This document shows positions 984 to 32,431 of a stretch of DNA of 64,000 nucleotides, one piece after another. Every line of letters begins with the position of its first letter. Position 1 is the stretch's first letter. The stretch is from Bradyrhizobium sp. 186 (GTDB taxonomy: Bacteria > Pseudomonadota > Alphaproteobacteria > Rhizobiales > Xanthobacteraceae), in NCBI RefSeq assembly GCF_023101685.1, contig NZ_CP082164.1, forward strand, positions 4,650,001 to 4,714,000, in the 5' to 3' direction. Both the position numbers and the translations under genes were made by a program. The notes under the pieces are model-generated. The model was not told the DNA's origin and did not search any database. It was given only the letters and a program-made list of their open reading frames with translations.

Positions 984-995
984 CGCGGTGGGGCA

Positions 996-2889: not shown

Positions 2890-2899
2890 ATTTGCCTAA

Positions 2900-4570
<1,671 letters not shown>

Positions 4571-4586
4571 CCCCCGCTCTCTCCTT

Positions 4587-4672: not shown

Positions 4673-4809
4673 GTGGAGAATGAGGTGTCAGCTTTCTCAA
4701 ACTCGCCAGTCGACAAACGCGCGACAGCGCGTTCCCCCGCTTTTATATTGACGCGCTCCGCTCCCTCCGCTTCGCTCGCGCCGACGAAGAAACTCCGGAG
4801 GAAGCCATC

Positions 4810-5832: not shown

Positions 5833-5886
5833 TTGCACCTGGGCCACTCTCCGGACGGAGATGGTTAACAGGAGTCACCGATCGGC

Positions 5887-5915
5887 CACACCTGCCCGCA
5901 AAAGCCGCAGGTGTG
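5887..5915. terminator. Hairpin, possible transcription terminator
   Basis: CACACCTGC (5887-5895) pairs with GCAGGTGTG (5907-5915), giving a 9-bp stem and an 11-base loop, 55 bases after the oxidoreductase stop. No T-run follows, so it is at best a weak or Rho-assisted terminator. Confidence 0.4.
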
Positions 5916-5975
5916 ACCGTCGGTTCATTGACGGGCCGGCGAAGGCATTGAATCATTGCGCATATTTCAGGTGCG

Positions 5976-6245
5976 ATGATGTTTGAGATCGGTATTTTCT
6001 GCGTAATCCTGCTGGCTGCCGGCTATTGGGCGACCATGTTCGTCATGGGCCGTCGCGACGACGTCATCCATGGCAAGTTCGTTCACGCCGACGAGGGGCT
6101 CGCGGCGATGGCGGCGCCGCCGTCCTTTCCGAAGCGCCCGGTCCGTGCTGTGCAGCCCGCCAGGGAGACGGCGAAGCCCGTGGACAGCGCGGCCCTGCAA
6201 TCGTTGCTCGCAGCGATTCAGCAGGATTTGAAGAACGTCGCGTAA
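5976..6245 (+). CDS. Hypothetical small single-span membrane protein
   Basis: An 89-residue protein with one N-terminal membrane helix (about 2-24), then a basic MGRRDD turn and a Pro/Ala-rich soluble tail that ends in a short amphipathic helix (SLLAAIQQDLKNV). The topology suggests an inner-membrane anchor with a cytoplasmic tail. I do not recognise a family. It stands alone, converging on the LacI-type gene 9 bases downstream. Confidence 0.55.
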   Translation: MMFEIGIFCVILLAAGYWATMFVMGRRDDVIHGKFVHADEGLAAMAAPPSFPKRPVRAVQPARETAKPVDSAALQSLLAAIQQDLKNVA

Positions 6246-6254
6246 GCCGCACAG

Positions 6255-7319: not shown

Positions 7320-7394
7320 CGAATCCCTGGAGAGAGCGACGTGGGGTTAGAGCATGGTGAAATCAGATCGGATTGCAACCGCCGCGGCGGTGCG

Positions 7395-7546
7395 CTCCCT
7401 CTCCCGCTTGCGGGGGAGGGTTGGGGTGGGGGTATCTCCGCGATGAAGATACTCCCCGTATGGAGAGAGCCCCCACCCGCCGCGCTCCGGACGATGCTTC
7501 GCATCGCTCGGCGCGCGTCGATCTCTCCCGCAAGCGGGAGAGGTGC
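7395..7546. repeat. Long palindromic intergenic repeat ('CTCTCCCGCTTGCGGGAGAGG' type)
   Basis: The left arm (7395-7432) holds CTCCCGCTTGCGGGGGAGGG followed by a G-rich run. The right arm (7470-7545) holds CCCCCACCCGCC and CTCTCCCGCAAGCGGGAGAG in inverted order. It fills the gap between the deacylase and the LacI-type gene, so it may attenuate read-through to the regulator. Repeats of this type are widespread in Rhizobiales. Confidence 0.8.
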
Positions 7547-17807: not shown

Positions 17808-17980
17808 GGGGTGATCCTGTTCGGCGCCGACCTCGAGGGATAGCGGACTGAACAGCTAGCTGGTCGCGCCATATTATGTCAATGATACTTACCTATATCG
17901 ATTTGTCCATGCCCAAAGAAGGATGTGGGCGCGCGGCCCGCGCGGTTGCGGGGAGGGACGGCGTCGCGTATTTGCTTGCC

Positions 17981-19579
17981 ATGACAGCAGCACAGAACGA
18001 CCGCTCCGCGTCGACGCTCTCCGTGGCCTCGGCGCACGACAAGATTCTCATCGTCGACTTCGGCAGCCAGGTGACGCAGCTGATTGCGCGTCGCGTGCGC
18101 GAGGACGGCGTCTATTGCGAGATCGTCCCGTTCAATAAGGCCGAAGAGGCCTTCAAGGAGTTGAAGCCGAAAGCGGTGATCCTCTCCGGCGGGCCGGAGT
18201 CGGTGCACGAGGCGGGCTCGCCCCGCGCGCCGCAAGCGATCTTCGATTCCGGCGTGCCGGTGATGGGCATCTGCTACGGCCAGATGACGATGGCGGCGCA
18301 GCTCGGCGGCCACGTCGAGGGCGGCCATCACCGCGAGTTCGGCCGCGCCGACGTCGAGGTGAAGGCCGGGAGCAAGCTGTTCGAGGACACCTGGTCGCTC
18401 GGCGGCAAGCATCAGGTCTGGATGAGCCATGGCGACCGCATCACCAAGATGCCGCCGGGCTTTTCCGTCGCCGGCACCTCGCCGAATGCGCCGTTCGCGA
18501 TCATCCAGGACGAGACGCGCAGATACTATGGCCTGATGTTCCACCCCGAGGTGGTGCACACGCCTGACGGCGCAAAACTGATTCGCAATTTCGTGCGCAA
18601 GATCGCAGGCCTCTCCGGCGACTGGACCATGCGCGCCTTCCGCGAGGAGGAGATCGCGAAGATCCGCGCCCAGGTCGGCAAGGGCAAGGTGATCTGCGGT
18701 CTTTCCGGCGGCGTCGATTCGGCTGTCGCCGCCGTGCTGATCCACGAAGCCATCGGCGAGCAGCTGACCTGCGTGTTCGTCGACCACGGCATGCTCCGCC
18801 TCGACGAGGCGAAGACGGTGGTCGACCTGTTCCGCCACCACTACAACATCCCGCTCGTGCACGTGGATGCCTCGAAACAATTCTTGGGCGAGCTCGAAGG
18901 CGTCACCGATCCCGAGACCAAGCGCAAGACCATCGGCCGCCTCTTCATCGAGGTGTTCGAGCAGGAGGCGAAGAAGATCGGTGGCGCCGATTTCCTCGCG
19001 CAAGGCACGCTCTATCCCGACGTGATCGAGAGCGTCTCCTTCACCGGCGGTCCCTCGGTGACGATCAAGTCGCACCACAATGTCGGCGGCCTCCCTGAGC
19101 GCATGAACATGAAGCTCGTCGAGCCCTTGCGCGAGCTGTTCAAGGACGAGGTGCGCAAGCTCGGCCGCGAGCTCGGCCTTCCCGAAATCTTCGTCGGCCG
19201 CCACCCGTTCCCGGGGCCCGGCCTTGCCATCCGCTGCCCCGGCGACATCACCCGCGAAAAACTCGACATCCTGCGCAAGGCCGATGCCGTCTACATCGAC
19301 CAGATCCGCAAGCACGGCCTCTACGACGACATCTGGCAGGCCTTTGCCGTGCTGCTTCCGGTGAAGACCGTCGGCGTCATGGGTGACGGCCGCACGTATG
19401 ATTTCGTCGTGGGCTTGCGCGCCGTCACCTCCACCGACGGCATGACCGCGGACTTCTACCAGTTCGACATGAAGTTCCTAGGCGAGACCGCCACGCGCAT
19501 CATCAACGAGGTGAAGGGCGTGAACCGGGTGGTGTATGACGTGACCAGCAAGCCGCCGGGGACGATTGAGTGGGAGTAG
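17981..19579 (+). CDS. guaA: GMP synthase (glutamine-hydrolysing)
   Basis: A 532-residue enzyme that aminates XMP to GMP using glutamine and ATP. The glutamine amidotransferase nucleophile is C98 (GICYGQM) with H188 and E190 (HPEVVH). The ATP-pyrophosphatase P-loop is SGGVDS at 242-247. The C-terminal dimerisation domain ends PPGTIEWE, the universal GuaA ending. I use the ATG at 17981; the frame is open to 17876 but the extra 35 residues are not family-like. Its last bases are an integration site: the end recurs at 24418 and 27613, and a 324-bp 3' fragment recurs at 24106. Confidence 0.97.
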
Positions 19580-19583
19580 GGGG
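19564..19583. repeat. guaA 3'-end attachment site (att, left boundary)
   Basis: GATTGAGTGGGAGTAGGGGG spans the last guaA codons and the stop. The 16 bases GAGTGGGAGTAGGGGG (19568-19583) recur exactly at 27613-27628, and GATTGAGTGGGAGT recurs at 24414-24427. The 3' end of guaA is a recognised chromosomal target of island integrases. Confidence 0.8.
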
Positions 19584-19653
19584 CGTGCTCCTGCGGTAAG
19601 TCGCATTGTTCGAATTGGGGAGATCGAAGTTGAGGGGCTGCGCCGAATAAGTC

Positions 19654-20553
19654 ATGGGATTCGGGGTCTTCATCCATCGCTTGGATTCGATCTATGATGA
19701 CAGTCCCGCTGAACGATATCAGTTTCCCGCTCAGTACTTGCGTCGCGTTGAAGCCTGCGTCGGAGACTGGATTATCTACTATGAACCGAGCAAGGTCGCT
19801 GAAACGCGAGGCTACTTTGCGATTGCAAGGGTTCAGCAAGTTATTCCCGACCCCGGAACTTCCGGGATGTATCTCGCGCTTGTCGAGCCGGGAAGCTATC
19901 TCGATTTCGCCAGTCCCGTTCCGTTCAACGGAGTGACCGGGCCGGTAGAGCGCGGCGTCCTAAATGAGCAAGGCCGAATTTCGGGACGGGCTCAATCAGC
20001 AGTCCGCCCAATCTCTGCCGACGATTTCAGTAGAATAGTCGAACTTGGTTTTGCGGAAGGGGCACCTTTGTTGCCCCGGCTCGATGATGACGTTCAGTCG
20101 CCTCATTTTGATGAGGAGCAGACACCGTTCAGGTTCGACCAGCAGCGCGACCGCGTTAGCCTCACAGTATCGAGGGTTTTGCGCGATCGCGTTTTTCGTC
20201 GGATTGTACTGCGTGCCTATGATGAGCGTTGCGCAATCACGGGACTGAAGCTCATCAATGGAAAGGGGCGGGCAGAGGTAGCGGCGGCTCACATACGGCC
20301 AGTGGAGGCGAGCGGGCCGGATATCATTAGCAATGGGATCGCTCTGTCGGGCACCGCGCATTGGATGTTTGATCGAGGTCTCATCAGCTTGGCGGACGAT
20401 TTGGAAATCTTGATCTCGCGTCAAACCAACGATTTGGAAGGAGTGCGATCAATCATCAACAAGACCGGTCGCGCGCTTGAACCGCGGCGCATATCGGATC
20501 GTCCACATCCGTATTTTCTAAGGCGGCATCGCGATCATTGTTTCAAGCAATAG
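19654..20553 (+). CDS. HNH endonuclease with N-terminal PUA/EVE-like domain
   Basis: A 299-residue protein with two parts. The C-terminal part (about 170-299) is an HNH_2-type nuclease: C193 (RCAITG), H213 (AAAHIRP), N227 (SNGIALS) and H236 (AHWMFDRGL). The N-terminal part (about 1-125), with GDWIIYYEP, GYFAIARVQQVIPDP and a LALVEPGSYLDF strand, looks like a PUA/EVE/ASCH-type fold that reads modified bases or RNA. This layout fits modification-dependent restriction. It is the first gene inside the guaA island and its base composition is visibly less GC-rich than its neighbours. No methyltransferase partner is nearby. Domain fold at the N-terminus is inference. Confidence 0.75.
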   Translation: MGFGVFIHRLDSIYDDSPAERYQFPAQYLRRVEACVGDWIIYYEPSKVAETRGYFAIARVQQVIPDPGTSGMYLALVEPGSYLDFASPVPFNGVTGPVERGVLNEQGRISGRAQSAVRPISADDFSRIVELGFAEGAPLLPRLDDDVQSPHFDEEQTPFRFDQQRDRVSLTVSRVLRDRVFRRIVLRAYDERCAITGLKLINGKGRAEVAAAHIRPVEASGPDIISNGIALSGTAHWMFDRGLISLADDLEILISRQTNDLEGVRSIINKTGRALEPRRISDRPHPYFLRRHRDHCFKQ

Positions 20554-20637
20554 CCGACGGCGATCTCCCGCACAGTTGCGACGATTGCGGAGAGTATTGA
20601 ACGTCGGTCGATCATTCGTCTTTTCCTTCCGCTGTTA

Positions 20638-21570
20638 GTGTCTGTCCGGGAACATCTTGAATCATCGGAATCATTTATGATTCAAGGGTGGCGGTCCGAT
20701 TCGAAGGGGCGCCCATGTGGACGAAGGAGAACCGCGGTCGTTACGACCGAAGCCGGCTACGCTATCCAAGCGATTTGACTGATGAGGAATGGGCGTTGGT
20801 GGAGCCGCTGATTGCGCCAGCCAAGCGAGGCGGCAACAAGCGCACGGTCGATGTGCGCGAGGTGATCAATGGCCTGATGTATGTGCTGAGCACCGGTTGC
20901 CAATGGCGAGCGATCCCGAAGGACCTGCCGCCACGCAGCACGGTGCACGACTATTTTGACTTGTGGGCTTGGAACGGCACGCTCGATCGCATCCATCACG
21001 CGCTCTATGTACAATGTCGAGAATTGGCCAACCGAGAACCCAGCCCGAGCGCCGCCATCATCGACAGTCAAAGCGTCAAGAGCGCGGAAAAAGGGGGGCG
21101 TGGATCGACCCGCATGGCTACGATGCGGGCAAGAAGATCAAGGGCAAGAAGCGCCACATCCTAGTCGATACTCAAGGCTTGCTGCTCCACGCCCTCGTGC
21201 ATTCGGCGGACATCCAGGATCGTGACGGTGGGGTGCTGGTGATGGCCACGCTGTTTGGCCTGCATCCATTCCTGCTGAAGCTCTATGCTGACGGCGGCTA
21301 TCAGGGGCCGATCTTTCAGTCCGCCGTTCGCAAAATCCTCCGGCAAATCGACGTCGAGATCGTCAAGCGCTCCGATACAGCAAAGAGTTTTGCGATCTTG
21401 CCCAAGCGATGGATCGTCGAACGCACCATCGCCTGGCTCAACCGCTGCCGCCGTTTGGCCAAGGATTGGGAGTGCCTCAACCGAAAGGCATTGGCGTTCT
21501 TGCGCCTCGCCTCAATCCGCCTCATGCTGCGAAAGCTCTGCCAAAAAACAGCATGATCCCGGACAGACTC
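20638..21570 (+). mobile_element. IS5-family (IS427-like group) insertion sequence, complete, 933 bp
   Basis: Terminal inverted repeats are GTGTCTGTCCGGGA (20638-20651) and its reverse complement form ending at 21570 (GAGTCTGTCCGGGA), 13 of 14 matching. The element is flanked by a TTA target duplication (20635-20637 and 21571-21573). It encodes one transposase in two overlapping frames. Confidence 0.88.
20715..21556 (+). CDS. IS5/IS427-type transposase, made by -1 frameshift
   Basis: Two frames together encode about 280 residues. The first frame (from ATG 20715, ending 21164) has the N-terminal DUF4096-like part (RYPSDLTDEEWALVEPLI) and the first catalytic Asp in IIDSQSVKSAEKGG. The second (to 21556) has DPHGYDAGKKIKGKKRH, the second Asp in YADGGYQG, and the E region WIVERTIAWLNRCRRLAKDWE. 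The frames meet at A5G6 (21088-21098), a slippery run where a -1 slip joins them, as in other IS427-group elements. All DDE residues are present, so it may be active. Confidence 0.88.
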
Positions 21571-22791
21571 TTAGGCAGATTGGTCGCGTTTGGCGAACTC
21601 TTCCGCAGCGATACGGATCGCCTGCTGTGTCGCGGGATAACCGCTGTAGGCTATGAGATTGATCAGCGTTTCGACGATCTCTTCGTGGCTTGCACCGACG
21701 TTCAAGGCGGCGTTGATGTGCACGCGCAAAGGAGTTTCCGTCGTCGCGGAACCGATGGCTGCCAAAGCCGCGCAGGCGGTGAGCTCACGAGTCTTCAGAT
21801 CGATTCCTTTGCGCGAGAACACCTCACCATAGGAATGCTCGACGATCATGCGCCCTAGGTCCGGCGCGATGTCGTCAAAACTACGGACCACGGCATCGCC
21901 TGACGATGCCGAGGTTTTCGCAAGCAGAACCTTCCCCCGCTCTAGTCGATCCGAGCGGCTCTCTGTATCGACGGGCGTGGGGATATCGACCTTAAGCGGC
22001 AGGACTCCGAGCGCGAAGACATTCTGAGCGATAGAGAATGCGTTCAGAGCTGACGGGAAGCCACGGTAAACGCTGAGCTGGATCAGAAGCTCGATGATCT
22101 CTTCGCGTATCACGCCATTTGCAAAGGCGCCGGCCAGATGAAGGCGAAGCGCGTCGTTGCGGTTACCGCTCGCGGCTAGCATCGCGATAATTGCGAGCAG
22201 CTTGGCCTGATGGTCGAGTCCCTCACGGGCCAGCGCCTCTCCGAACGCGAAATCGATCGAAAGCTGCGCGAGGTCGGGCGCGGTGCCAGCAAAGCGGTCG
22301 AAATAGTCCTGCGCATCGCCGCTTACGAGCCGGTCCAGCATGTCCTGTCCGGTCCATCCGCGCCCCACTCCATCACCTGTCTTAGGTTCGATGGGTTGAA
22401 ACGATAGCTCTCGTTCGGCGAACACCGACCGAACGATTCCTACGGCATTGACGGTGGCCGGGAAGCCCAGGATTGCAACCGATACGAAGAGCAATTCAAC
22501 GATCGCGTTAGGCTCACCGCCAGCATTGAGAAAGCCGGCTATATGAAATTTCAGTTGCGGCTGGGCGCTTCCATCGGCCAGCAGCATGGAGATGGTGCAT
22601 AGCTGCCTTAGCGGGAGATCAAGGCCCGGGCGGGATAGCACATCGCCGTACGGGTATTCGACGGTGAAGCGCGAAAGATCGGCGGAGGTTTCCGCGAGAG
22701 CATTGATCGGCCCGTCAAAATTTTCCCCGCCGATCTGGCGAAGTATCTCCAGACCGCGCGAAAATCGATCCCCACGAGATTCCGACGCCAT
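21571..22791 (-). CDS. Triple-domain carboxymuconolactone decarboxylase (AhpD-fold) family protein
   Basis: A 406-residue protein made of three tandem CMD-like units (about 1-135, 140-275, 280-406). Each has the pattern Y/F-G-(D/E)-(V/A)-(L/F)-(S/A)-R-x-G-(L/I)-D, then an H-(I/L)-x-(A/G) helix, then a GFP/GYP-(A/S)-x-x-(A/Q) helix. The CxxC of AhpD peroxidases is absent from all three. CMD enzymes act on lactones in aromatic breakdown, but most family members have unknown roles. Its stop codon is the TTA duplicated by the adjacent IS. It is divergent from the LysR gene at 23005, the likely regulator. Confidence 0.8.
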   Translation of the reverse strand: MASESRGDRFSRGLEILRQIGGENFDGPINALAETSADLSRFTVEYPYGDVLSRPGLDLPLRQLCTISMLLADGSAQPQLKFHIAGFLNAGGEPNAIVELLFVSVAILGFPATVNAVGIVRSVFAERELSFQPIEPKTGDGVGRGWTGQDMLDRLVSGDAQDYFDRFAGTAPDLAQLSIDFAFGEALAREGLDHQAKLLAIIAMLAASGNRNDALRLHLAGAFANGVIREEIIELLIQLSVYRGFPSALNAFSIAQNVFALGVLPLKVDIPTPVDTESRSDRLERGKVLLAKTSASSGDAVVRSFDDIAPDLGRMIVEHSYGEVFSRKGIDLKTRELTACAALAAIGSATTETPLRVHINAALNVGASHEEIVETLINLIAYSGYPATQQAIRIAAEEFAKRDQSA

Positions 22792-23004
22792 GGCATAGTT
22801 ACTCCTACTGATGACGAAAGAGCTTGTTGCAGCAAAGAAAGCTGTCTCAATGAGGCGCCGCCGCGACGCATTTCTTCTTTCGCAACGGCATCCGAACCTG
22901 ACATCCCAAACTCTCCAGCTCTGCCTTCCGTCCCCACTTCACTTTCGTTCGAAACTCTGCTGCGGCGATTGCGATAAATCCAATGCATAATTACTATAAT
23001 CGTC

Positions 23005-23919
23005 ATGAAGCGCGTTCATCTCGCAAATATCGACCTCAACCTTCTCGTGGTGTTCGACGCTCTGGTCTCCGAGGGCCATGCAACCCGGGCCGCCGAGCGC
23101 ATCGGTCTTACCCAGCCGGCCGTTAGCCACGCGCTCAATCGTCTCCGGGTGCTTTTCGGCGATCCACTCTTTATTCGATCTCCGCGCGGCATGGTGCCGA
23201 CCCCGGCGGCACTGGAGGCGGCGCCCGCAATCCGATCGATTCTTGAACAGGTCGAGAGTGTGCTTCGGGGTGGCCGCGCTTTCGATCCACCGGAGAGCAC
23301 CCGACAATTCGTCCTCGGGCTTTCAGACTACGCTGCGCTTGTCTTGCTGCCGCGACTTACGGCCCGCCTCGATCGTGAAGCGCCCGGCGTATCGCTCACG
23401 ATCCGCAATACCAGCCGCAGCGTCGGCCTGGCGATGTTGGACGACGGTGCGGTCGAGCTCATTGCCGGCAATTTTCCGGAGCCGCCGACACACATGCGGG
23501 AAGAACTCCTCTACGAGGAGGACTTCGTCTGCGCGGCCCGGGGCGATCATCCTAGCCTCGACGGTTCCCTTGACCTCGACCGCTATTTGTCCCTTCGACA
23601 CCTGCAGGTCTCGATGAAAGGAAATCCCCACGGCTATGTCGACGCGGTTCTGGCGGAAAGGGGGGTGAAGCGTAATGTTGCCGTTACGGTCGGACACTTC
23701 CTGATGGCGCCGATGCTTGTTGATGCATCCGATCTTGTCGCGACCGAGCCGCGCCGTCTCTTCGGATCGCTTGCGGGTCGGCTACCGCTCACGCTCCTCC
23801 CTCCGCCGATTGAGATACCGCCCTTCCGGGTCGTTCAAACTTGGCACGCCCGATACGATACCGACCCCGGTCATCAATGGGTCCGGCAGGTGATACGTGA
23901 AGTGGGCCAGTGGGCCTGA
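23005..23919 (+). CDS. LysR family transcriptional regulator
   Basis: A 304-residue LTTR. The wHTH is at about 8-65 (DLNLLVVFDALVSEGHATRAAERIG, LTQPAVSHALNRLR). The effector domain follows, with YEEDFVCAARGDHP typical of the NodD/NahR-like branch. It is divergent from the triple CMD gene across a 213-base gap, the classical LTTR arrangement. The likely inducer is an aromatic or lactone compound, by context only. It lies inside the guaA island. Confidence 0.92.
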   Translation: MKRVHLANIDLNLLVVFDALVSEGHATRAAERIGLTQPAVSHALNRLRVLFGDPLFIRSPRGMVPTPAALEAAPAIRSILEQVESVLRGGRAFDPPESTRQFVLGLSDYAALVLLPRLTARLDREAPGVSLTIRNTSRSVGLAMLDDGAVELIAGNFPEPPTHMREELLYEEDFVCAARGDHPSLDGSLDLDRYLSLRHLQVSMKGNPHGYVDAVLAERGVKRNVAVTVGHFLMAPMLVDASDLVATEPRRLFGSLAGRLPLTLLPPPIEIPPFRVVQTWHARYDTDPGHQWVRQVIREVGQWA

Positions 23920-24036
23920 TCAGTCACAAGGCCAATCCCCTTGGGCGCCCCAACTGCCACGATACCGATCCACCTTGGACGATTCCCGTCACCTCTTTGC
24001 CAAGCTGGCGGTCGATCACCGGCCGCCATGGGACCA

Positions 24037-24050
24037 GAATTACGGTGACA
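24037..24050. repeat. Direct repeat copy 1, GAATTACGGTGACA
   Basis: The 14-base word recurs exactly at 31014-31027. It stands just upstream of the guaA fragment. It resembles the head of REP-type sequences linked to RAYT transposases (from memory), but no hairpin is clear here. Confidence 0.5.
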
Positions 24051-24105
24051 GTGCATAAAACTTGCAATGCCTGACCCAGGCCCCACCAGGTCCAGGCGCC
24101 TGCCT

Positions 24106-24429
24106 GACAAGCTCGATATCCTGCGCAAGGCCGACGCCGTCTACATCGACCGGATCCGCAAGCACGGCCTCTACGACGACATCTGGCAGGCCTTTGCGGT
24201 GCTGCTGCCTGTGAAGACGGTCGGCGTCATGGGCGACGGCCGCACGTATGATTTCGTAGTGGGCCTGCGCGCCTTGACCTCCACCGACGGCATGACCGCG
24301 GACTTCTACCAGTTCGACATGAAGTTTTTGGGCGAGACCGCGACGCGCATCATCAACGAGGTGAAGGGCGTGAACCGGGTGGTGTACGATGTGACCAGCA
24401 AGCCGCCGGGGACGATTGAGTGGGAGTGA
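24106..24429 (+). pseudogene. guaA: Displaced 3' fragment of guaA
   Basis: The frame from 24106 encodes the last ~108 residues of GMP synthase ([15 protein letters not shown] ... PPGTIEWE). By hand alignment it matches 19255-19579 with about 19 base differences in 324, and only two or three change an amino acid (for example Q to R in IDRIRKHG and V to L in RALTS). It lacks the amidotransferase and ATPase domains, so it cannot be functional. An upstream ATG at 24067 opens the same frame but the added residues are unrelated. It marks an island boundary: it is either the original gene end displaced by integration, or an end brought in from a related strain. Confidence 0.88.
24414..24427. repeat. 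guaA-end attachment-like site, internal copy
   Basis: GATTGAGTGGGAGT ends the guaA fragment and matches the end of intact guaA exactly. After GAGTGGGAGT the sequence departs from the other two copies (GAACGG instead of AGGGGG), so this is the copy where the junction differs. Confidence 0.7.
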
Positions 24430-24692
24430 ACGGGAGTACCGTGGAGTCGTATCGGATAGCAGAGGACACTCGAGCGAATCCCAGGCCATCGATAGCAGTC
24501 GATAGATTCTAGGCGACCCGCAGATCTGCCGCTCTGTCGGGCGTCTCCCCGCTCTTCGAACGGCGCCCATACGCCGTCAGGCCCACCCCAACCTTCGCGA
24601 CTTTGTGGCCTTCAAATATCCGGTCGCGCGCTGCTCGAAACAGTTAGCGCGCGCGACCAGTTCTCGGCGTCGATCACACGGTCGTAGATCGA

Positions 24693-25292
24693 TTACTGCT
24701 CCTGCTTGAACAAATCCTGGAAGATGAGCGGGCCCCAAACGCGGCCGCGTGCGTGCACCAGCGCGCCACCCTCGTTGAGCTTTCCCAGCTTGACGGGTGC
24801 GAACCCGAGTTGTTTGGCCAAGGCCGCCACGGGAGCGATCGCGTCCTCGTCGTCACCAGACAGAAAGACGACCCGGTGGCCGCCGTCGACGACCGGATCG
24901 GTAGCCAGGGTGGCTGCAATCAGATGATTGAAACCTTTCACGAGCTTGCCGCCGGTGAACGACTTCGCAACGAAGGCGGAGGACGGGAGGCCGTCCAGCT
25001 CTTCAGGGACTGGAAACGCGTTCATCGCGTCGATGACTGTCTTGCCTTTCCAGCTCGGCAGGGCCTTCGCAACCTCGCGATGCTCCCCGAAAGGGACCGC
25101 CAAGATGATTGTGTCGGCCTCGACTGCGTCCCGCAGCGACTTGGCGACGACGGTGGGTCCAATCGCCCGAGCCTGCGGCGCCAACGCCTCGGGCGGCCGG
25201 CGGCTCGCGACGGCCACCTTGATGTTCTTACGGGCGAAGGCCCGGGCGAGAGCCTGGCCTACCGCACCGAATCCTACAATCGCATAGCTCAT
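24693..25292 (-). CDS. NADP-binding oxidoreductase, F420-dependent NADP reductase-like
   Basis: A 199-residue Rossmann protein. The dinucleotide turn VGFGAVGQALA is at about 5-15, followed by a basic SRRPPE after strand 2, which favours NADPH. The AKSFTGGKLVKGFNHL block is typical of NADPH:F420 oxidoreductase-like (COG2085) proteins, which in proteobacteria are annotated as NAD(P)-binding reductases with unknown substrates. It follows the SDR gene by 41 bases on the same strand, so the two probably form an operon controlled by the divergent LysR gene. Confidence 0.82.
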   Translation of the reverse strand: MSYAIVGFGAVGQALARAFARKNIKVAVASRRPPEALAPQARAIGPTVVAKSLRDAVEADTIILAVPFGEHREVAKALPSWKGKTVIDAMNAFPVPEELDGLPSSAFVAKSFTGGKLVKGFNHLIAATLATDPVVDGGHRVVFLSGDDEDAIAPVAALAKQLGFAPVKLGKLNEGGALVHARGRVWGPLIFQDLFKQEQ

Positions 25293-25333
25293 AATACTTC
25301 TCCGATCCGTCTTGATATTGATTCCCCGGCCCT

Positions 25334-26068
25334 TCAGATGGCCGAGAAGCCGCCGTCGACAGACAACTCCACCCCATTCACGAAGCTCGAATCGTCTGAA
25401 GCAAGAAACAGCGCGACCGCCGCAATTTCCTCAGGACGCCCCATCTTTCCCCGCGGGATCAGGGATTCGAACATCCGCTTCGCCTCCTCGGTGAGAACTT
25501 GGTCCTGCATCGGTGTGGCGATCGGCCCCGGGCTCAGCACGTTCACCCGGATATTCCTGCCCTTCAGTTCGTTGAGCCAAGTGCGTGCGAATGAGCGCAA
25601 CGCCGCCTTGCTCGCCGAATACACGCCGTAACCAGGAAAACCTTTCACCGAGGCAACTGACCCGGTCATGAAGATCGATCCGCCATCGTTGAACAGCGGC
25701 AACGCCTTCTGAACCGTAAACAGCGTGCCGCGCGTATTCAGGTTGAAGGCCGCATCGAAATGCTGCTCGGTAATCTCGCCCAGTGGGACGGCTTCGCCCA
25801 TGCCTGCGCTCGCGTACAGGACGTCGATCTTGCCCTTTTCCCGCTTGACCGTATCGAACAGGCGGTCGAGGTCGTCGAGATTGGCCGCGTCGCCGCGCAC
25901 GCCGGTCACGTTCCGGCCAATCAGCTTGACGGCCTCGTCCAGCGCCTCCTGCCTCCGGCCCGTGATGAAAACATAGGCGCCTTCTTCAACGAACCGCTTG
26001 GCGCTCGCCAGCGCCATACCGCTCGATCCACCCGTGATGACTGCAACCTTACCCTCAAGCTTTCTCAT
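25334..26068 (-). CDS. Short-chain dehydrogenase/reductase
   Basis: A 244-residue classical SDR. The cofactor turn is TGGSSGMALA (about 12-21; the usual GIG is GMA here). NNAG is replaced by YASAG (about 85-89). The catalytic set is S137, Y150 and K154 (YGVYSASKAAL). PGPIATPM and the C-terminal SVDGGFSAI are standard. Start at 26068 (MRKLEGKVAVITGG); the longer frame to 26815 is antisense to the LysR gene. Substrate unknown. It is divergent from the LysR gene at 26345 and leads a two-gene operon. Confidence 0.9.
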   Translation of the reverse strand: MRKLEGKVAVITGGSSGMALASAKRFVEEGAYVFITGRRQEALDEAVKLIGRNVTGVRGDAANLDDLDRLFDTVKREKGKIDVLYASAGMGEAVPLGEITEQHFDAAFNLNTRGTLFTVQKALPLFNDGGSIFMTGSVASVKGFPGYGVYSASKAALRSFARTWLNELKGRNIRVNVLSPGPIATPMQDQVLTEEAKRMFESLIPRGKMGRPEEIAAVALFLASDDSSFVNGVELSVDGGFSAI

Positions 26069-26344
26069 GATTTCTCTTTCAGACTCCGTCTTTGGTTGTT
26101 CGGGGATGCTCCCGAGAACCTCAACATGGGTCCGCCGGCGCCAGGCGTTGAGTGCGGAAACGCGCACATCGGTGGTGCGAAATCGATCCGGCTGGACGAC
26201 TGACGCCAGCCCCGCGATGATCGGTATCCGCCGTTCGGAATTGGGCCGTGCTTGTCGGCATAGGCTATGATGACCGCGCGTACTGCTGTTCGATGTGTTA
26301 GATACGGGCTTTGGAAGGCGCACCGCGCGGTGCGGGATTGCACC

Positions 26345-27235
26345 ATGATCGACTGGGATGACGTTCGCTACTTTCTTGCCGTCGCGCGCGGAGGCTCGGT
26401 GCGGGCTGCCGCCGAGCGCCTCGGTGTGAACCACGCGACCGTGCTGCGACGCATCGCCCAGCTCGAGGAACGCCTCGGGGTGCACATGTTTGAAAAGCTG
26501 CCTTCGGGCTACCGCCTGACGGCTGCGGGCGAGGAGGTCCTCGAGTTCGCGGACCAGATGGAAGCGTCGTCGCACCTGCTGGAGACGCGCGTCTTCGGGC
26601 GCGACCAGAGCGTGCGCGGGCTTCTGCGGGTGACGCTGGCGCCGCCCCTCGCGACACATCTGCTCATGCCGGACTTCGCCGATTTCGCGCATCTGCATCC
26701 GGACATCGAGATGGAAATCTTGTCGTCCGGCGAGCTGGCAAATCTGACCAACCGAGAGGCCGACGTCGCGATCCGCGTCGTCTACGACCGCAAAACCCTG
26801 CCGCTCAATCTTCACGGCCTGAAGGGACCGGAGTTGTTCGGAGGCGTCTACATGTCCCGGGATCGACTAACCGCGTGGCGTGCGGCCGCGCCTGATCCCA
26901 TCCGGTGGATTGTCATAAGCAGTCATGGAATCCCGGATTGGGCCCGCGAGGTTCGCACCACGGGGGTTCCATTCAGGACCACGGACGGCGAGGCGCAGAT
27001 CGTTGCTGTACGGCAAGGGCTCGGGATGACGACACTGCCGTGTTTCGTCGGAGATGCCGACCCCCTACTGGTGAGGGTGCCGGGTACAGACCTGCACATG
27101 CACGGAACGGTTTGGCTTCTCACACAGGGCGAGACACGCAAGACGAAGCGCGTGCGGCTCTTCACCGAGTTCGTATCCCGCAGGCTCTCCGCGTACGCTC
27201 CGCTTCTCGCGGGGCTGTCCATATCGCGCGACTGA
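26345..27235 (+). CDS. LysR family transcriptional regulator
   Basis: A 296-residue LTTR of the CrgA/YafC-like branch. The wHTH is at the very start (MIDWDDVRYFLAVARGGSV, VNHATVLRRIAQLEERLG). The effector domain has READVAIRVVY and QGLGMTTLPCFVGD, typical of this branch. I use the ATG at 26345; the upstream in-frame ATG at 26267 adds 26 residues without likeness. It is divergent from the SDR/reductase pair, which it probably regulates. Confidence 0.92.
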   Translation: MIDWDDVRYFLAVARGGSVRAAAERLGVNHATVLRRIAQLEERLGVHMFEKLPSGYRLTAAGEEVLEFADQMEASSHLLETRVFGRDQSVRGLLRVTLAPPLATHLLMPDFADFAHLHPDIEMEILSSGELANLTNREADVAIRVVYDRKTLPLNLHGLKGPELFGGVYMSRDRLTAWRAAAPDPIRWIVISSHGIPDWAREVRTTGVPFRTTDGEAQIVAVRQGLGMTTLPCFVGDADPLLVRVPGTDLHMHGTVWLLTQGETRKTKRVRLFTEFVSRRLSAYAPLLAGLSISRD

Positions 27236-27612
27236 CGCCCGGCAGGTCGCCGGCGACGCTTGCCGTAATCCGGTCGGAAGCCGAGCTGTGATCGCTTGAA
27301 GCGGCGTCGTTCAATCCGCGAATGTTGCGCCGTATCGCAACCGGCGCGAGGGGCCACACCACTGACGGCGACGGACTTCACCATCGCTGACGGTCTTTTT
27401 GGCAGGCTGGAGACGCCGCTTTTGCGGAGAACTCCGAGGAAAATAGACCAACCGATATCGATAGTCTTTGAAACCGAGCAAATCGCGGATCGCCGAAATT
27501 CTCCTTTGAATTCAAGAGCAAGAATTTCTGACGGATCCGGGATACGGTTCTTCGTCGTCAGCGGAAAGATTTTCCTCGATGGATCAATGCGTTATGATGC
27601 TTCAGAACAATC

Positions 27613-27628
27613 GAGTGGGAGTAGGGGG
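27613..27628. repeat. guaA-end attachment-like site, right copy
   Basis: GAGTGGGAGTAGGGGG is identical to 19568-19583 at the guaA stop. There is no guaA coding sequence in front of it, so this is a bare att-type core as left at the far end of an integrated element. The two bases before it read TC where guaA has TT. Confidence 0.78.
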
Positions 27629-27756: not shown

Positions 27757-27999
27757 GTGAACTTCAACCTCTATCTCGATGATCAAACCGCCAAGGAATT
27801 GGACCAAACGGCCAAGAAGCTGGGCGAGACGCGCAGTGGGTTGATCCGCAAGGCGCTGCGCGAATGGCTGGACAAGAAGACACTCGGCAGTCCCGGCTGG
27901 CCATCGCTGATCCTGGAGTGGCAGGGCGTTCCCGACGTGCCACCATTCGAATCGTATCGCGGCGAATTGCTGTCACCGCTTGAAGACGACTTTTCGTGA
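27757..27999 (+). CDS. Ribbon-helix-helix antitoxin (VapB-type, CopG-like)
   Basis: An 80-residue antitoxin. The RHH domain is at about 1-43 (FNLYLDDQTAKELDQTAKKLGETRSGLIRKALREWL). The tail (about 44-80) is Pro/Trp-rich and acidic at the end, as expected for a toxin-neutralising arm. The start codon is GTG. Its stop codon overlaps the toxin start (GTGA), which couples their translation. It binds DNA at the dyad upstream and masks the toxin. Confidence 0.85.
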   Translation: MNFNLYLDDQTAKELDQTAKKLGETRSGLIRKALREWLDKKTLGSPGWPSLILEWQGVPDVPPFESYRGELLSPLEDDFS

Positions 28000-28400
28000 A
28001 GTATCTCCTCGACACCAATGTGCTGAGCGACTTCGCGCGCGGCGAACGAGCCGTAACGGCGCGGCTCCGTCAGGAAGCGCCGCAGCAATTGGCCGCTTCG
28101 GTGATCACGGAGTTGGAAGTCGAGTATGGTTTGGCGCGCAATCCCAATCTGACACCTCGCGTGCGAGAAGCCATGCGGATGCTTCTGAACACGATCTCCG
28201 TTTTGCCGTTCGAGCGCGAAGATGCCCGTGTAGCGGCGCAATTGCGTGCAAGCTTGAACAGCCAGGGGACGCCCATCGGAGCGTATGACCTGCTCCTTGC
28301 GGCCTGTGCCTTGCGGCGGGGGCTCAAGATCGTGACGCACAATGCGCGGGAATTCGTTCGCGTCGGCGGGCTCGGGCTTGAGGATTGGCATAGCCCGTAA
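27996..28400 (+). CDS. PIN-domain ribonuclease toxin, VapC-type
   Basis: A 134-residue PIN protein. The acidic centre is visible as D6 (LLDTNVLSD), E39 (VITELEVEYG) and D98 (IGAYDLLLAACA), with the THNAREF block at 114-120. VapC toxins cleave tRNA or rRNA at specific sites and stop translation. The start is GTG, overlapping the antitoxin stop by 4 bases. The pair lies just outside the right guaA-like site and may help retain the accessory DNA. Confidence 0.92.
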   Translation: MKYLLDTNVLSDFARGERAVTARLRQEAPQQLAASVITELEVEYGLARNPNLTPRVREAMRMLLNTISVLPFEREDARVAAQLRASLNSQGTPIGAYDLLLAACALRRGLKIVTHNAREFVRVGGLGLEDWHSP

Positions 28401-28471: not shown

Positions 28472-30976
28472 ATGAAATCCACGCACCGAAAACCGAATCT
28501 CGTTGCCAAGCCGAACAGGGAACCCAAGCTCTCCCGCACCCATGCTCCAGCGGATCTGTCGCCGCTGGACTGGCAACGCGGTTTGCGCCGACAGTTTGGC
28601 CGCGAGCAGACCTTCGGGCTTGAAAATCTGACCGGCGAACCGTTTTTCTCCGAGTTTCGGGTCAGCAATCCAGCGTCGAAATCCAGCTATCGCGTCGCGA
28701 TTCGAGGCTTGGGGCCGGGCGGCAATTTCTGTTCTTGCCCCGATTATGCCACGAGCGAGCTGGGGACCTGCAAGCACCTCGAATTCACGCTTGCGCGGTT
28801 GGAGAAAAAGCGCGGCGCAAAGGCGGCGTTCACGCGCGGCTATCAGCCTGCATTTTCTGAACTGTATTTGCGCAATGAAGGCAAACGCTGCGTGCATTTT
28901 CGCGCAGGAACGGATTGCCCGCCGGCGGTAAAGGAGGCCGCCGCCGGCCTGTTCGACGCCGAACGCGGCGGGATGCTGTCGGAGGGGCGTTTCGGCGAGT
29001 TGGAACGCTTCATGGCCATGGCGTCGAAGTGCGGTCATGAGCTGCGCGCTTATGACGACGCGCTCGATTTTGTCGCGGGAAGACGGGACGCGGATCGCCG
29101 GGCCTCGAAGCTGGAGCAGCTATTCCCGCGCGGCGCAGCCGATGCAAAGCTGCGGGCGCTTCTGAAGGTCCCGCTTTATACCTATCAAGCCGAGGGCGCG
29201 CTGTTTGCGGTGCGGGCCGGTCGGGCGTTGATCGGCGACGACATGGGACTTGGCAAGACCATACAGGCAATCGCCGCGACGGAAATACTGGCACGGCATT
29301 TTGGCGTCTCGAAAGTTCTGGTGATCTGCCCGACCTCCCTCAAATATCAGTGGCAAAGCGAGATTGCGCGCTTCTCGGGACGGAAGAGCAAGAATGCGGC
29401 ACGCGTTATCGGCGGCGGCCGCGCGCAGCGGCAGAAGGACTATGCCCTGGACGACTTCTGCAAGATAACAAACTACGAGAAGCTCAAGCCCGATCTCGAC
29501 CTGATCGCCGCATGGTCGCCCGAACTGGTTATCGTCGATGAAGCGCAACGGGTGAAGAACTGGAACACTATTGCGGCACGCGCCTTGAAACGTATCGATA
29601 GCCCCTATGCGATCGTGCTGACCGGTACGCCCCTGGAAAACAAGCTCGAGGAACTGATCTCCATCGTCCAGTTCGTCGATCAGCATCGGCTGGGACCAAC
29701 CTGGAAGCTGCTGCACGAGCATCAGGTCAAGGACGAAGCCGGGCGCGTCACCGGCTATACCGGGCTGGATAAGATCGGCCAAACGCTAGCGCCGGTTATG
29801 ATCCGCCGCCGCAAATCCGAGGTGCTGCGCCAATTGCCCGCCCGGACCGACCAGAACCTGCTGGTGCCGATGACCCAAATGCAAATGGACTACCATCAGG
29901 AAAACGCCGACGAGGTGGCGAAAATCGTTCGGCGCTGGCGCAAGACCAGGTTTCTGTCGGAGATGGATCAGCGGCGACTGATGATTGCCCTGCAGAACAT
30001 GCGCATGTCGTGCAACAGCACCTATCTGCTGGACCAGGAAACCGACCATGGCGTCAAGGCCGACGAACTGGCGGCACTGCTCGACGAATTGTTCGCCGAT
30101 CCCGAGGCCAAGGCGGTGGTGTTTTCGCAGTGGACGCGGACCCATGACATCGTCATCCGCCGTCTCGAAGCGCATGGACACGGCTATGTCAGCTTCCACG
30201 GCGGTGTACCGTCAGAGAAGCGGCCGGCACTGATCGAGCGGTTTCGCGACGACCCCGCTTGCCGGGTGTTCCTGTCCACCGATGCCGGCAGCACGGGCCT
30301 CAATCTGCAGCACGCTTCGACGCTGGTGAACATGGACCTGCCGTGGAATCCGGCAATCCTCGAACAGCGCATCGCACGCATCCATCGCATGAGCCAGGCG
30401 CGGCCGGTGCGGGTCATCAATTTCGTGGCAAAGGGCACCATCGAGGAGGGCATGCTTTCGGTGCTGGCGTTCAAGCGATCGTTGTCGGCAGGAATTCTCG
30501 ACGGTGGCAGTGGTGAGATTTCGCTCGGCGGTTCGCGCCTCAACCGCTTCATGAAGGACGTGGAAAGCGTCACCGGAAGCATGGGTGAGAGCGAGGCCGT
30601 GACGCCGGCTGAGGAAATCAGGAATATCGTCACTGCTGATGACACCGGGTCCGGGGAAGATATAAATGTGGATGTGAACGATGGCGCTGGCGAGACGGCG
30701 ATCGCGCAGGCTGATGGGGCTGGAGCTTCATCGCGCGATACGGCTTCCGATCCGTGGCAAGCCCTGGTGCAGGTCGGTGCGCAGTTTGTTGCCGCACTGG
30801 TGGCTGCCAACGACCCCAAGGCTGACCCCAAGACTGTGGCTCATCCCTGGATCGAGCGCGATCCGGCAACTGGCGCGCAAAGCCTCAAAATGCCGCTGCC
30901 CTCACCGGAGACCGCGCGACAACTTGCCAATGCACTTTCTGCACTCGCGGACGGCCTGCGCGGCAAGATTGCGTGA
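28472..30976 (+). CDS. SNF2-family helicase with N-terminal SWIM zinc finger (834 aa)
   Basis: The SWIM finger is C87-x-C89 ... C100-x-H102 (FCSCPDYATSELGTCKH). The SNF2 motor follows: GDDMGLGKTIQAIA (Walker A, GLGKT at 259-263), VIVDEAQRVKN (DEAQ at 356-359), LTGTPLENKLEELISI (motif III), and the second lobe FLSTDAGSTGLNLQ and RIARIHRMSQ (motifs V-VI). A ~150-residue acidic, low-complexity tail ends in a short helical region. SNF2 proteins translocate on double-stranded DNA. The specific role is unknown; its accessory position next to vapBC makes DNA defence or island maintenance possible. It differs from the larger core copy at 40906. Confidence 0.9.
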   Translation: MKSTHRKPNLVAKPNREPKLSRTHAPADLSPLDWQRGLRRQFGREQTFGLENLTGEPFFSEFRVSNPASKSSYRVAIRGLGPGGNFCSCPDYATSELGTCKHLEFTLARLEKKRGAKAAFTRGYQPAFSELYLRNEGKRCVHFRAGTDCPPAVKEAAAGLFDAERGGMLSEGRFGELERFMAMASKCGHELRAYDDALDFVAGRRDADRRASKLEQLFPRGAADAKLRALLKVPLYTYQAEGALFAVRAGRALIGDDMGLGKTIQAIAATEILARHFGVSKVLVICPTSLKYQWQSEIARFSGRKSKNAARVIGGGRAQRQKDYALDDFCKITNYEKLKPDLDLIAAWSPELVIVDEAQRVKNWNTIAARALKRIDSPYAIVLTGTPLENKLEELISIVQFVDQHRLGPTWKLLHEHQVKDEAGRVTGYTGLDKIGQTLAPVMIRRRKSEVLRQLPARTDQNLLVPMTQMQMDYHQENADEVAKIVRRWRKTRFLSEMDQRRLMIALQNMRMSCNSTYLLDQETDHGVKADELAALLDELFADPEAKAVVFSQWTRTHDIVIRRLEAHGHGYVSFHGGVPSEKRPALIERFRDDPACRVFLSTDAGSTGLNLQHASTLVNMDLPWNPAILEQRIARIHRMSQARPVRVINFVAKGTIEEGMLSVLAFKRSLSAGILDGGSGEISLGGSRLNRFMKDVESVTGSMGESEAVTPAEEIRNIVTADDTGSGEDINVDVNDGAGETAIAQADGAGASSRDTASDPWQALVQVGAQFVAALVAANDPKADPKTVAHPWIERDPATGAQSLKMPLPSPETARQLANALSALADGLRGKIA

Positions 30977-31027: not shown

Positions 31028-31171
31028 CTCAATACCATAAGGCCAATCGCTGGTTGAGAACGGCCAGCCAATGCCGTCGTCCCGACCGGCGCAGGTACCC
31101 GGCGCAAACGCGGGATGTCGGCCGTGCGACGTCATGATACGACCTCCGCATCGCCCCTTCGGAGCCGCCCC

Positions 31172-32431
31172 ATGTCCGCTGCTACCTCCCCCAGCCAACC
31201 ACCCGCAACCGCCACCGAGACCGATCCGGAAGCGCTTGGTTGGATGAGGGGCTTCCCCCCGGCACCCGATCGCACCATCACCTTCCAGAACGGCTCCTTC
31301 CGCAGCTTCCCCGAGTTGCGCTGGGCCTGGAGCAACATCCGCCAGCTGGTGCCGACCGTGAACGTTTGGCGCGGGGCAGGGCCCGCGTCGGTGCTGCAGC
31401 GTGAAGACCATGACATCGGCGCGTCGGCCTCGATCACCATGGATGGCCGTCCCATGACGTTCGCGAAAATGCTGGAGGAGACCTATGCGGACGGCATCGC
31501 CGTGCTGCATCGGGGCAAGCTGATCTACGAACGCTATTTCGGTGCGCTGAAGCCGCACAAGCCGCATATCGCGATGTCGGTCACGAAATCCTTCACCGGC
31601 GTGCTCGCCGGCATTCTGGTTACGGAGGGCAGGATCGATCCGCAGGCACAGGTGGCGGACTATGTGCCGGAGCTGAAGGCCAGCGCGTTCGGCGATGCGC
31701 GCGTGCACGAGGTCATGGATATGACTACGGGGCTCGAATACACCGAAGTCTACACCGACAAGAACTCGCACGTGTGGGGCCTGCGGCGTGCCAATGGCAT
31801 GGCGCCGATTCCGCCTGATTATGACGGCCCGACCACCATCTTCGATTTCCTCATGGCGCAGACGAAGCAGGGCGAGCACGGCAAGGCCTTTGCCTACAAG
31901 ACCGTCAACACCGACGTGCTTGCCTGGATCTGCCGGCGCGCGAGCGGGATGACGCTGTCCGACCTTCTCTCGGAACGCATCTGGGCCCCGATGGGTGCGG
32001 AGGAGGACGCGCATTATCATGTCGACCGCATCGGCACCGAAAGCGGCGGTGGCGGCCTGTCCACCAGCTTGCGCGATCTTGCCCGCTTCGGCGAGACGAT
32101 GCGCAATCACGGCCGGTTCAACGGCCGCCAGATCGTGCCGTCATCTGTTGTCGAGGACATCGCGCGCGGCGGCGATCCCCAGAAGTTCAAGCCGGCCGGC
32201 TACACCACGTTGCCCGGCGCCTCCTACCGCAATCAATGGTGGGTCACGCACAATGCGCACGGCGCCTACATGGCGCGCGGCGTTCATGGCCAGGGCATCT
32301 ATGTCGATCCCAAAGCCGAGATGGTGATCGCACGCTACGCCTCGCATCCGGTTGCCGGGAACGCCGCCAACGACCCCGTGACGTTGCCGGCCTACATGGC
32401 GCTGGCGAGGGAGCTGACGGCTGGCGGGTAA
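31172..32431 (+). CDS. Beta-lactamase-related serine hydrolase
   Basis: A 419-residue class C beta-lactamase-fold hydrolase (includes esterases and 6-aminohexanoate-dimer hydrolases). The nucleophile motif SVTK is at 136-139 (MSVTKSFTG), the Y-x-N-like block is YKTVNTDVL, and GSGGG-type (ESGGGGLSTSLRDLARFG) and HGQGIYVDP follow. No signal peptide is seen, so it is probably cytoplasmic. I use the ATG at 31172 (MSAATSPSQPPA); the frame opens further upstream but without a ribosome site. Natural substrate unknown. Confidence 0.85.
   Translation: MSAATSPSQPPATATETDPEALGWMRGFPPAPDRTITFQNGSFRSFPELRWAWSNIRQLVPTVNVWRGAGPASVLQREDHDIGASASITMDGRPMTFAKMLEETYADGIAVLHRGKLIYERYFGALKPHKPHIAMSVTKSFTGVLAGILVTEGRIDPQAQVADYVPELKASAFGDARVHEVMDMTTGLEYTEVYTDKNSHVWGLRRANGMAPIPPDYDGPTTIFDFLMAQTKQGEHGKAFAYKTVNTDVLAWICRRASGMTLSDLLSERIWAPMGAEEDAHYHVDRIGTESGGGGLSTSLRDLARFGETMRNHGRFNGRQIVPSSVVEDIARGGDPQKFKPAGYTTLPGASYRNQWWVTHNAHGAYMARGVHGQGIYVDPKAEMVIARYASHPVAGNAANDPVTLPAYMALARELTAGG

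Follow-up and report, generated by a model that had tools for sequence, protein, structure and literature searches.

In gammaproteobacteria, GIsul2 and the CR2-sul2 unit target the 3′ end of guaA through the core GAGTGGGA, and the GIsul2 integrase mobilises a unit that lies between extra cores and lacks an integrase of its own (PMC9376610). In Streptococcus, the ICESt1-related CIMEs are integrase-less segments with att sites that undergo tandem accretion (PMC5704250), and in Dehalococcoides one gene-end hotspot at ssrA holds tandem islands, 15 of them without an integration module (PMC3146451). The guaA gene is also the integration site of ICEs in Mesorhizobium, as for IntG of the tripartite ICEs (PMC8627217, a paper covering ICEs and IMEs).

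Here we describe the region downstream of guaA in Bradyrhizobium sp. 186, within a 64-kb stretch of DNA that was analysed as a whole (the window). The target, the guaA 3′ end, and the core GAGTGGGA are the same as those of GIsul2 (PMC9376610). The guaA integrase of Bradyrhizobium, which has an AlpA-like neighbour, shares 57% identity with one encoded on an IncC plasmid, where the neighbouring genes encode AlpA, RepA, RepC and a stabilisation protein; these neighbours fit GIsul2, and we infer that the plasmid integrase is that of GIsul2. In contrast to GIsul2, Bradyrhizobium has many unrelated cargo modules, tandem arrays and a conserved right arm, modules of its type are spread across families of the Hyphomicrobiales, and module B, described below, has no transposase gene among its ORFs or Pfam matches. 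The own integrase and backbone of GIsul2 are also missing, with no AlpA or Rep among the 9 genes of the 19.6-31 kb region run against Pfam. The stacking of integrase-less, att-flanked segments in tandem is shared with the ICESt1-related CIMEs (PMC5704250), but the core-bounded guaA modules that were read are mostly 0.8-3.5 kb long (three are of 7-8 kb) and several have a common left arm of their own. The Dehalococcoides islands use a serine recombinase and the tmRNA gene, in contrast to the tyrosine integrase and guaA found here (PMC3146451), and the Mesorhizobium ICEs share guaA as integration site in a related member of the order (PMC8627217). No description of the Bradyrhizobium guaA modules was found among the titles and abstracts listed by a literature search, in whose coverage subscription papers were few. 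The best reading, to which we assign a probability of about 0.8, is that these are non-autonomous modules that guaA integrases have stacked, either acting in trans or through accretion.

Attachment cores at the guaA stop

The guaA gene (GMP synthase; 17876..19579, + strand) is complete in its longest frame, and its last codons carry the attachment core on the attL side; a guaA 3′ end is present in 143 of 146 genomes of the genus, this one included. An earlier note on this DNA had reported that a 16-base core at the guaA stop recurs downstream, and the recurrence is exact at 19568-19583 and 27613-27628. With flanking matches, the repeat extends to GATTGAGTGGGAGTAGGGGG at 19564-19583 and AATCGAGTGGGAGTAGGGGG at 27609-27628, the only 2 matches in the 64-kb window when up to 3 mismatches were allowed, and matches appeared in 0 of 100 shuffles. 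GATTGAGTGGGAGT is present at 24414-24427. Across the whole genome, the 16-base core pattern with ≤2 mismatches has 9 matches, of which only the three at 19568, 24414 and 27613 are clustered on the same strand. Such attL/attR direct repeats, at the guaA stop and the island end, are those by which a genomic island is recognised.

Comparisons of occupied with unoccupied sites place the crossover at GAGTGGGA, an 8-letter site at 19568..19575 (+ strand) in the guaA stop region that is identical to the published GIsul2 core (PMC9376610). The right core (attR side; 27609..27628, + strand) is of the element type, AATCGAGTGGGA followed by the downstream sequence, with GAGTGGGA at 27613-27620.

Gene content between guaA and E1

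The HNH nuclease, the IS and the two LysR genes that had been placed between the repeats were all recovered, by Pfam matches, a two-frame transposase and inverted ends. The HNH gene (19654..20553, + strand; PF13391, E 2e-8) lies directly 3′ of guaA in 18 of 80 related loci, and is possibly an old occupant. It is followed by an IS (20635..21573, + strand), whose transposase is encoded in two overlapping frames and whose inverted ends match at 15 of 17 bases, by a gene with three carboxymuconolactone-decarboxylase domains (CMD; 21571..22791, - strand; PF02627 in 3 stretches), and by a LysR-family regulator (23005..23919, + strand; PF00126/PF03466). A homologue of the CMD gene (74% DNA identity; locus L059, 12058-13311) is the sole ORF >100 aa in a core-bounded 2-kb module. 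A junction sequence with a REP-like part (24040..24105, + strand) then leads into a displaced guaA 3′ end (guaA′; 24106..24429, + strand; 322 bp, 94% identical to guaA) with a core at 24418-24425. The repeat reported at 24414 is thus present, not as a bare core, however, but as the tail of guaA′.

Module B (24430-27628) begins with a left arm (24430..24690, + strand; GGGAGTACCGTGGAGT..TATCGGATAG). Its cargo consists of a F420/NADP oxidoreductase-like gene (24693..25292, - strand; PF03807, E 3e-20), a short-chain dehydrogenase gene (25334..26068, - strand; PF13561, E 1e-60) and a LysR-family regulator gene (26348..27235, + strand; PF00126). The right, P′-like arm (27550..27609, + strand) carries ATCAATG at 27583, 27 bp before ATCGAG at 27610. 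In other genomes the module, from the left arm on, begins directly at the guaA stop. These include six genomes of other families, outside Bradyrhizobium, in which module B is 85-91% identical at the DNA level and guaA 76-80%; the identities indicate that module B was transferred between families. The core pattern found no right core after module B in the B-bearing genomes of other families, and 9 of the 20 regions examined showed no B-like DNA close to guaA.

Beyond module B lie a ribbon-helix-helix antitoxin and VapC-type PIN toxin pair (27757..28400, + strand; PF01402, PF01850), which in G075 lies immediately 5′ of E1 and in G055 immediately 5′ of a remnant of E1, and a SNF2-type helicase gene (28472..30976, + strand). 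Given that the guaA regions of both G031 and G054 contain the latter, at 91% DNA identity, it is probably variable cargo, too. E1 (31098..32431, + strand), putatively beta-lactamase-like by its sequence, is the conserved right-hand anchor.

A hypervariable junction in Bradyrhizobium

The guaA-E1 interval is a hypervariable junction in the genus: E1 was found 0.8-173 kb downstream of guaA, on the same strand, in 76 of 86 genomes compared. The earlier note had ended the island at 27628; the variable interval instead reaches E1 at ~31.1 kb. Beyond guaA, the core pattern occurs in 31 copies on the guaA strand and 0 on the other, in 24 of 80 loci, and 12 of the 31 sit in displaced guaA tails. For 22 of 51 internal cores, another genome has the post-core sequence directly abutting guaA, compared to none of 254 random pieces and none of 61 shifted ones; a strict counterpart was absent for the other 29. 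Unoccupied and occupied sites were paired in G040/G080 (1406 bp, 95%), G004/G167 (3764 bp, 88%) and G047/G166 (243 bp, 91%). For elements of 9.9, 62.7 and 79 kb, alignment through the core shows unoccupied counterparts in other genomes. The expected unoccupied sites are seen in relatives for equivalent cores. The particular strain predicted, joining guaA directly to the sequence after 27628, did not appear among the genomes tested; the 836-bp stretch after 27628 is itself present in just 6 of 257 genomes, this one included.

In G062, a core remote from guaA shares its strand with the anchor E1, ~7 kb away, and the sequence flanking this core abuts guaA in G092; a rearrangement is therefore the likely cause of its remoteness. 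G025 also has a core far from guaA.

Integrases, conserved arms and the origin of the modules

That the guaA 3′ end is an integrase target, and that relatives carry guaA-site integrases, held well: of the 14 full-length tyrosine integrases in one family, 12 are located at guaA. In at least 7 of 16 integrase-bearing genomes a good core follows 10-84 kb downstream on the same contig and strand; among the matches listed for the other 9, no such core occurs. The guaA region of G167 contains an integrase-bearing element as well as module B. An HMM built from 29 integrase frames detected no integrase in stop-to-stop frames of ≥50 aa in the window, as had been stated for the segment between the repeats. 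The best relative that this genome has of the guaA integrase is 34% identical and on another contig, and no integrase of the guaA family remains. Serine recombinases were sought by a simple motif within the 80 related loci. As in CIMEs, integrase and transfer genes are lacking (the latter among 9 window genes run against Pfam) and the cores and right arm are kept; the own integrase of an autonomous ICE or IME is absent from the window.

The right arm of module B is common to integrase-bearing elements. Of 38 right ends, 30 carry ATCA(A/G) precisely 27 bp upstream of the core, against a background of 1.2%. When a matrix was trained on the 6 right ends that lie downstream of intact integrases, it recognised 25 of 32 others at p≤0.01 (23 of 29 when further cores of the training genomes were left out), and the right end in the window scores above all of ~20,000 controls. 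Arm plus core, with ≤2 mismatches, was found in 30 of 397 genomes of the order and 23 of 141 genera (reversed-pattern control 0); guaA was seen in 0 of 30 short loci (1.5-kb flanks) and 0 of 3 longer stretches around these matches. On the left, GGAYAG at +15 to +50 occurs in 18 of 118 post-core stretches (control 1.15%), 9 of the 18 being module B itself. A left arm is common to module B and several modules with other cargo, and it is unlike the left ends of integrase-bearing elements.

This left arm is a point against the strongest alternative, that the modules are CIMEs by decay, i.e., old ICEs or IMEs that kept their ends while integrase and transfer genes were deleted. Tandem CIMEs are a known outcome (PMC5704250), and integrase remnants (E 4e-15 to 1e-4) are found in 5 of 80 related loci (L111, L119, L120, L139 and L153), directly after a core in L120 and after a guaA′ in L139, while the same HMM detected none in module B. 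We consider such decay somewhat less probable than not. Since their left arm is unlike that of integrase-bearing elements, module B and some modules with other cargo may have been non-autonomous from the start. The earlier proposal of two stacked acquisitions that lost their recombination genes is thus upheld for the stacking at guaA, given the post-core joins, but module B, with its distinct left arm, may never have had such genes.

Displaced guaA ends

Alternatively, an incoming guaA 3′ end could have recombined homologously at guaA, leaving displaced ends, with the short cores being eroded guaA ends. Downstream, 19 of 80 related loci indeed have another stretch that matches the guaA 3′ end, over about 28-320 bp (<50 bp in six), and similar sequence precedes guaA′ in the window and in G082. 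However, element-type cores (ACAATCGAG...) differ from guaA (ACGATTGAG / ACGATCGAG), the conserved arm at fixed spacing is not guaA sequence, and the boundaries coincide with the core. These contradict homologous recombination for the element-type right ends, and we regard it as improbable overall; it may nevertheless have caused the guaA′ event at 24106. Displaced guaA tails begin at many different positions, which simple core recombination does not explain, and erosion, or homologous plus illegitimate joining, is a possible origin.

Two further candidates were rejected. A fixed second crossover site inside guaA does not fit the scattered 5′ ends of the tails, only the window and G082 sharing one. 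The HNH protein as a homing enzyme spreading guaA tails was rejected as a general cause because displaced tails are no commoner beside the HNH gene (4 of 18 loci) than elsewhere (15 of 62).

Chance repeats with ordinary vertical gene order, in which the HNH gene 3′ of guaA in 18 of 80 loci could be ancestral, have a negligible probability in view of the shuffles and the 0.8-173 kb range of the guaA-E1 gap in 76 genomes.

Proposed mechanism and implications

Packages that lack an insertion enzyme but bear its landing marks look like passengers of another element's enzyme. In the stacking of non-autonomous modules that we favor, tyrosine integrases would target the guaA 3′ end and exchange strands at GAGTGGGA. 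At least one complete non-autonomous module, B, would have entered the guaA site of this genome, flanked on the left by a host-type core, now on guaA′, and on the right by its own arm and core. A later acquisition would have placed the HNH-IS-CMD-LysR DNA next to intact guaA, separating it from the old guaA end, so that guaA′ now precedes module B. An element that resides at guaA, or arrives there, would supply the integrase, which would recognise the core and the right arm with its ATCA(A/G) at -27. Mobilised in trans, or in cis by accretion, a module would be excised as a circle or jointly with a neighbouring element, and insertion into the guaA core or that of a module would create tandem arrays.

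Integron cassette arrays line up small cargo units without recombinase genes at a single site. The guaA modules form similar strings, although unlike integron cassettes they retain a phage-type arm and core. We tentatively suggest, at a little under even odds, that they are a dedicated family of small non-autonomous guaA cassettes rather than decayed islands, with a left arm of GGGAGTACC..GTGGAGTAG..GGATAG or related sequence, few cargo genes, often for redox or detoxification functions, and a right arm and core like those of integrase-bearing elements. They would be captured, reordered and spread across Hyphomicrobiales families by whichever guaA integrase is present, forming an integron-like platform on a phage-type integrase and the end of a housekeeping gene.

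If true, the stacking of such modules would mean that a well-known integration site also hosts a passenger class of gene packages, and it would account for some of the differences in gene content between Bradyrhizobium strains downstream of guaA. The arm and core signature could be used to search for integrase-less modules across the order, and the finding would let one ask whether one integrase moves modules that never had one.

Core Repeats and the Displaced guaA End in the Window

The GMP synthase gene guaA (17876-19579, + strand) ends at 19579, and the 16 bases that an earlier note had described at its stop (19568-19583) do recur exactly at 27613-27628; the 14-base repeat at 24414-24427 is also present. 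The latter copy terminates a 322-bp fragment of the guaA 3' end (guaA', 24106-24429) with 94% identity to guaA. The genome (10.77 Mb, 2 contigs), whose closest named relatives by guaA are Bradyrhizobium, was searched in full at two or fewer mismatches with a 16-base core pattern, the core being the 8-base crossover site in the guaA stop region; nine matches were found, among which the window's copies were the only clustered same-strand ones.

A REP-like sequence, GGTGACAGTGCATAAAA..CTTGCAATGC (24040-24070 in the window; also in locus L136), lies directly or just before displaced guaA ends that differ in their start positions. In genome G082, a stretch of ~65 bp before its own guaA' resembles that of the window, and an integrase remnant follows this guaA' of G082. 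In its C-terminal part, the HNH protein (19654-20553) is similar to restriction enzymes that target phosphorothioate DNA, with a score under the curated cut-off.

The guaA-E1 Interval in Bradyrhizobium

The 364-bp guaA end was present in 143 of 146 genomes, own genome included, and the right-hand anchor gene E1 (31098-32431, + strand) was detected in 93. In 86 of these 93 genomes, own genome excluded, the positions of the two genes were compared: in 76, E1 lay past guaA and on its strand. Among the other 10, E1 was on a separate contig in five, on the opposite strand in one, and on the guaA strand without being downstream in one; for the last three, no position of guaA was entered. The guaA-to-E1 distance varied from 0.8 to 173 kb and is 11.5 kb in the window. 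Thus, the variable interval extends from guaA to E1, beyond the end at 27628 originally proposed. A SNF2-type helicase gene (28472-30976 in the window) has counterparts with 91% identity in G031 and G054, also in the guaA region but placed differently with respect to the cores.

From 80 of the 142 other genomes, picked by similarity and contig extent, ~20 kb downstream of guaA was fetched (three loci were shorter, at contig ends). The core pattern (≤1 mismatch) occurred beyond guaA in 24 of the 80 loci, with 31 copies on the guaA strand and none on the opposite strand. Twelve copies lay within displaced guaA ends, a further guaA match being found downstream in 19 of the 80 loci; the other 19 were short ends, mostly ACAATCGAGTGGGAGT or close variants, whose upstream sequence is unlike guaA.

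The Crossover Site

For 51 internal cores (these 31, two of the window and 18 from other loci), the post-core sequence began directly at the guaA core of another genome in 22 cases by a strict and 25 by a loose criterion, compared to 0/254 and 1/254, respectively, for random pieces and 0/61 for shifted pieces. Some counterparts were the same module at guaA and others an unoccupied site. The clearest occupied/unoccupied pairs were G080 vs. G040 (a 9.9-kb integrase-bearing element; 1406 bp aligned at 95%), G167 vs. G004 (62.7 kb; 3764 bp at 88%) and G166 vs. G047 (79 kb; 243 bp at 91%). Because the left half of the core remained with guaA or the element and the right half was swapped, these alignments place the crossover within GAGTGGGA, which is given as the GIsul2 core in the published text (PMC9376610). 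The strain anticipated by the earlier note, with guaA joined directly to the sequence after 27628, was not found among the genomes tested.

Two cores were remote from guaA. The one in G025 (C1:5677205; L283 at 7208) is of the element type, has a right arm and lies ~431 kb from guaA, neither guaA nor E1 being present in the 14 kb read around it. That of G062 (C1:677854; L284) is ~7 kb from E1, its flank joins guaA in G092, and it probably reflects a chromosome rearrangement that split the guaA locus.

guaA Integrases

One family of integrases, with domains PF13356, PF22022 and PF00589, was found at guaA, as in G007, ~290 bp past the gene. A full-length or nearly full-length copy (≥77% identity) occurred in 14 of 265 genomes. 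Positions were established for 12 of the 14 copies (all but those of G261 and G256): by coordinates or fetched DNA, 11 were beside guaA, and the G170 copy adjoins a guaA-type core. G073 and G080 carry at guaA a second form of the integrase, with 46-47% identity. The best relative in the window's own genome has 34% identity and is on another contig. In at least 7 of 16 integrase-bearing genomes, some of which are fragmented, a good core was present 10-84 kb further downstream and shared the contig and strand; G247 had three such cores, with an integrase fragment after the last.

In most integrase-bearing genomes read (e.g., L135 and L274), the last guaA codons were GAA TAA or GAA TGA, vs. GAG TAG or GAG TGA, and this silent GAA change may mark occupied sites; G080, with the divergent integrase, retains GAG TAA.

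The Right Arm

Of 38 right ends compared, 30 have the motif ATCA(A/G), allowing A, G or T in position 1 and T or C in position 2, with its first base exactly 27 bp upstream of the core (background, 1.2%). The 38 comprised every one of the 19 cores in the 80 loci that are not of guaA type, the right end of the window, and 18 ends taken from other loci. Trained only on six ends downstream of intact integrases, a weight matrix covering the 60 bp upstream of the core picked 25 of the 32 other ends at p ≤ 0.01 (23/29 when three more cores from the training genomes were omitted), and the window's right end outscored each of ~20,000 control positions. G080, which has the divergent integrase, is among the seven ends that the matrix missed.

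Across the order, the arm plus core at ≤2 mismatches was found in 30 of 397 genomes and 23 of 141 genera (control, 0), and cores recurred in tandem in three stretches read further. guaA was absent from the DNA obtained for these three stretches and from all 30 short arm-plus-core loci. One genome of another family (L354 and G489:C48) had five arm-plus-core copies, three of them inside 23 kb.

The Left Arm and Module Cargo

GGAYAG was found at +15 to +50 past the core in 18 of 118 post-core stretches, vs. 1.15% of control positions. Module B, the integrase-less unit at 24430-27628, accounts for nine of the 18; the other nine appear, in our reading, to be followed by different sequence. The left ends of integrase-bearing elements are unlike this arm.

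The module of L059 carries a carboxymuconolactone-decarboxylase-domain (CMD) gene related to that of the window (21571-22791, - strand), and B comes after this module in L059, just as it comes after the CMD gene in the window. Among the genes carried by other modules were one resembling beta-lactamases, one for a sigma factor alongside an NmrA-like gene, one for an FAD oxidoreductase alongside a TetR gene, and GMC oxidoreductase, epoxide hydrolase, luciferase-like monooxygenase or CHAT-domain genes. In L123, a core-bounded 8-kb module (550-7518, oriented, from the guaA query start) encodes a CHAT-domain protein of 1122 aa and a second protein, of 1050 aa, that lacks a Pfam match; the two may be a defence pair.

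Module B and a Probable History of the Window

Module B extends between the guaA' stop (24430) and the core at 27609; its genes encode an oxidoreductase of the F420/NADP type, a short-chain dehydrogenase and a LysR regulator. Its left arm directly follows guaA in six Bradyrhizobium genomes (G025, G031, G053, G125, G138 and G015), whose identity to the window is 87-97% in left-arm pieces, 91-95% in the main part of B and 84-89% at the guaA end.

Across the order, B-like DNA occurred in 31 of 397 genomes, at identities from 64% upward. Among 20 such regions fetched, guaA was upstream in 11, G368 included, and was not found within the DNA read in nine. Six genomes from other genera (G350, G411, G457, G348, G565 and the MAG L070) have the start of B no more than ~110 bp from the guaA stop; identity is 85-91% in the main pieces of B, vs. 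76-80% for guaA (only 199 aligned bp for G350), and in left-arm pieces 88% for G350 and 79% for G411. B follows another module's core in G646 and lies 3 kb from guaA in G494.

Because the guaA'-B order of the window repeats the guaA-B arrangement of other genomes, guaA' probably represents the former end of the gene. The HNH-IS-CMD-LysR segment would then have come to lie between the complete guaA and guaA' through a later event.
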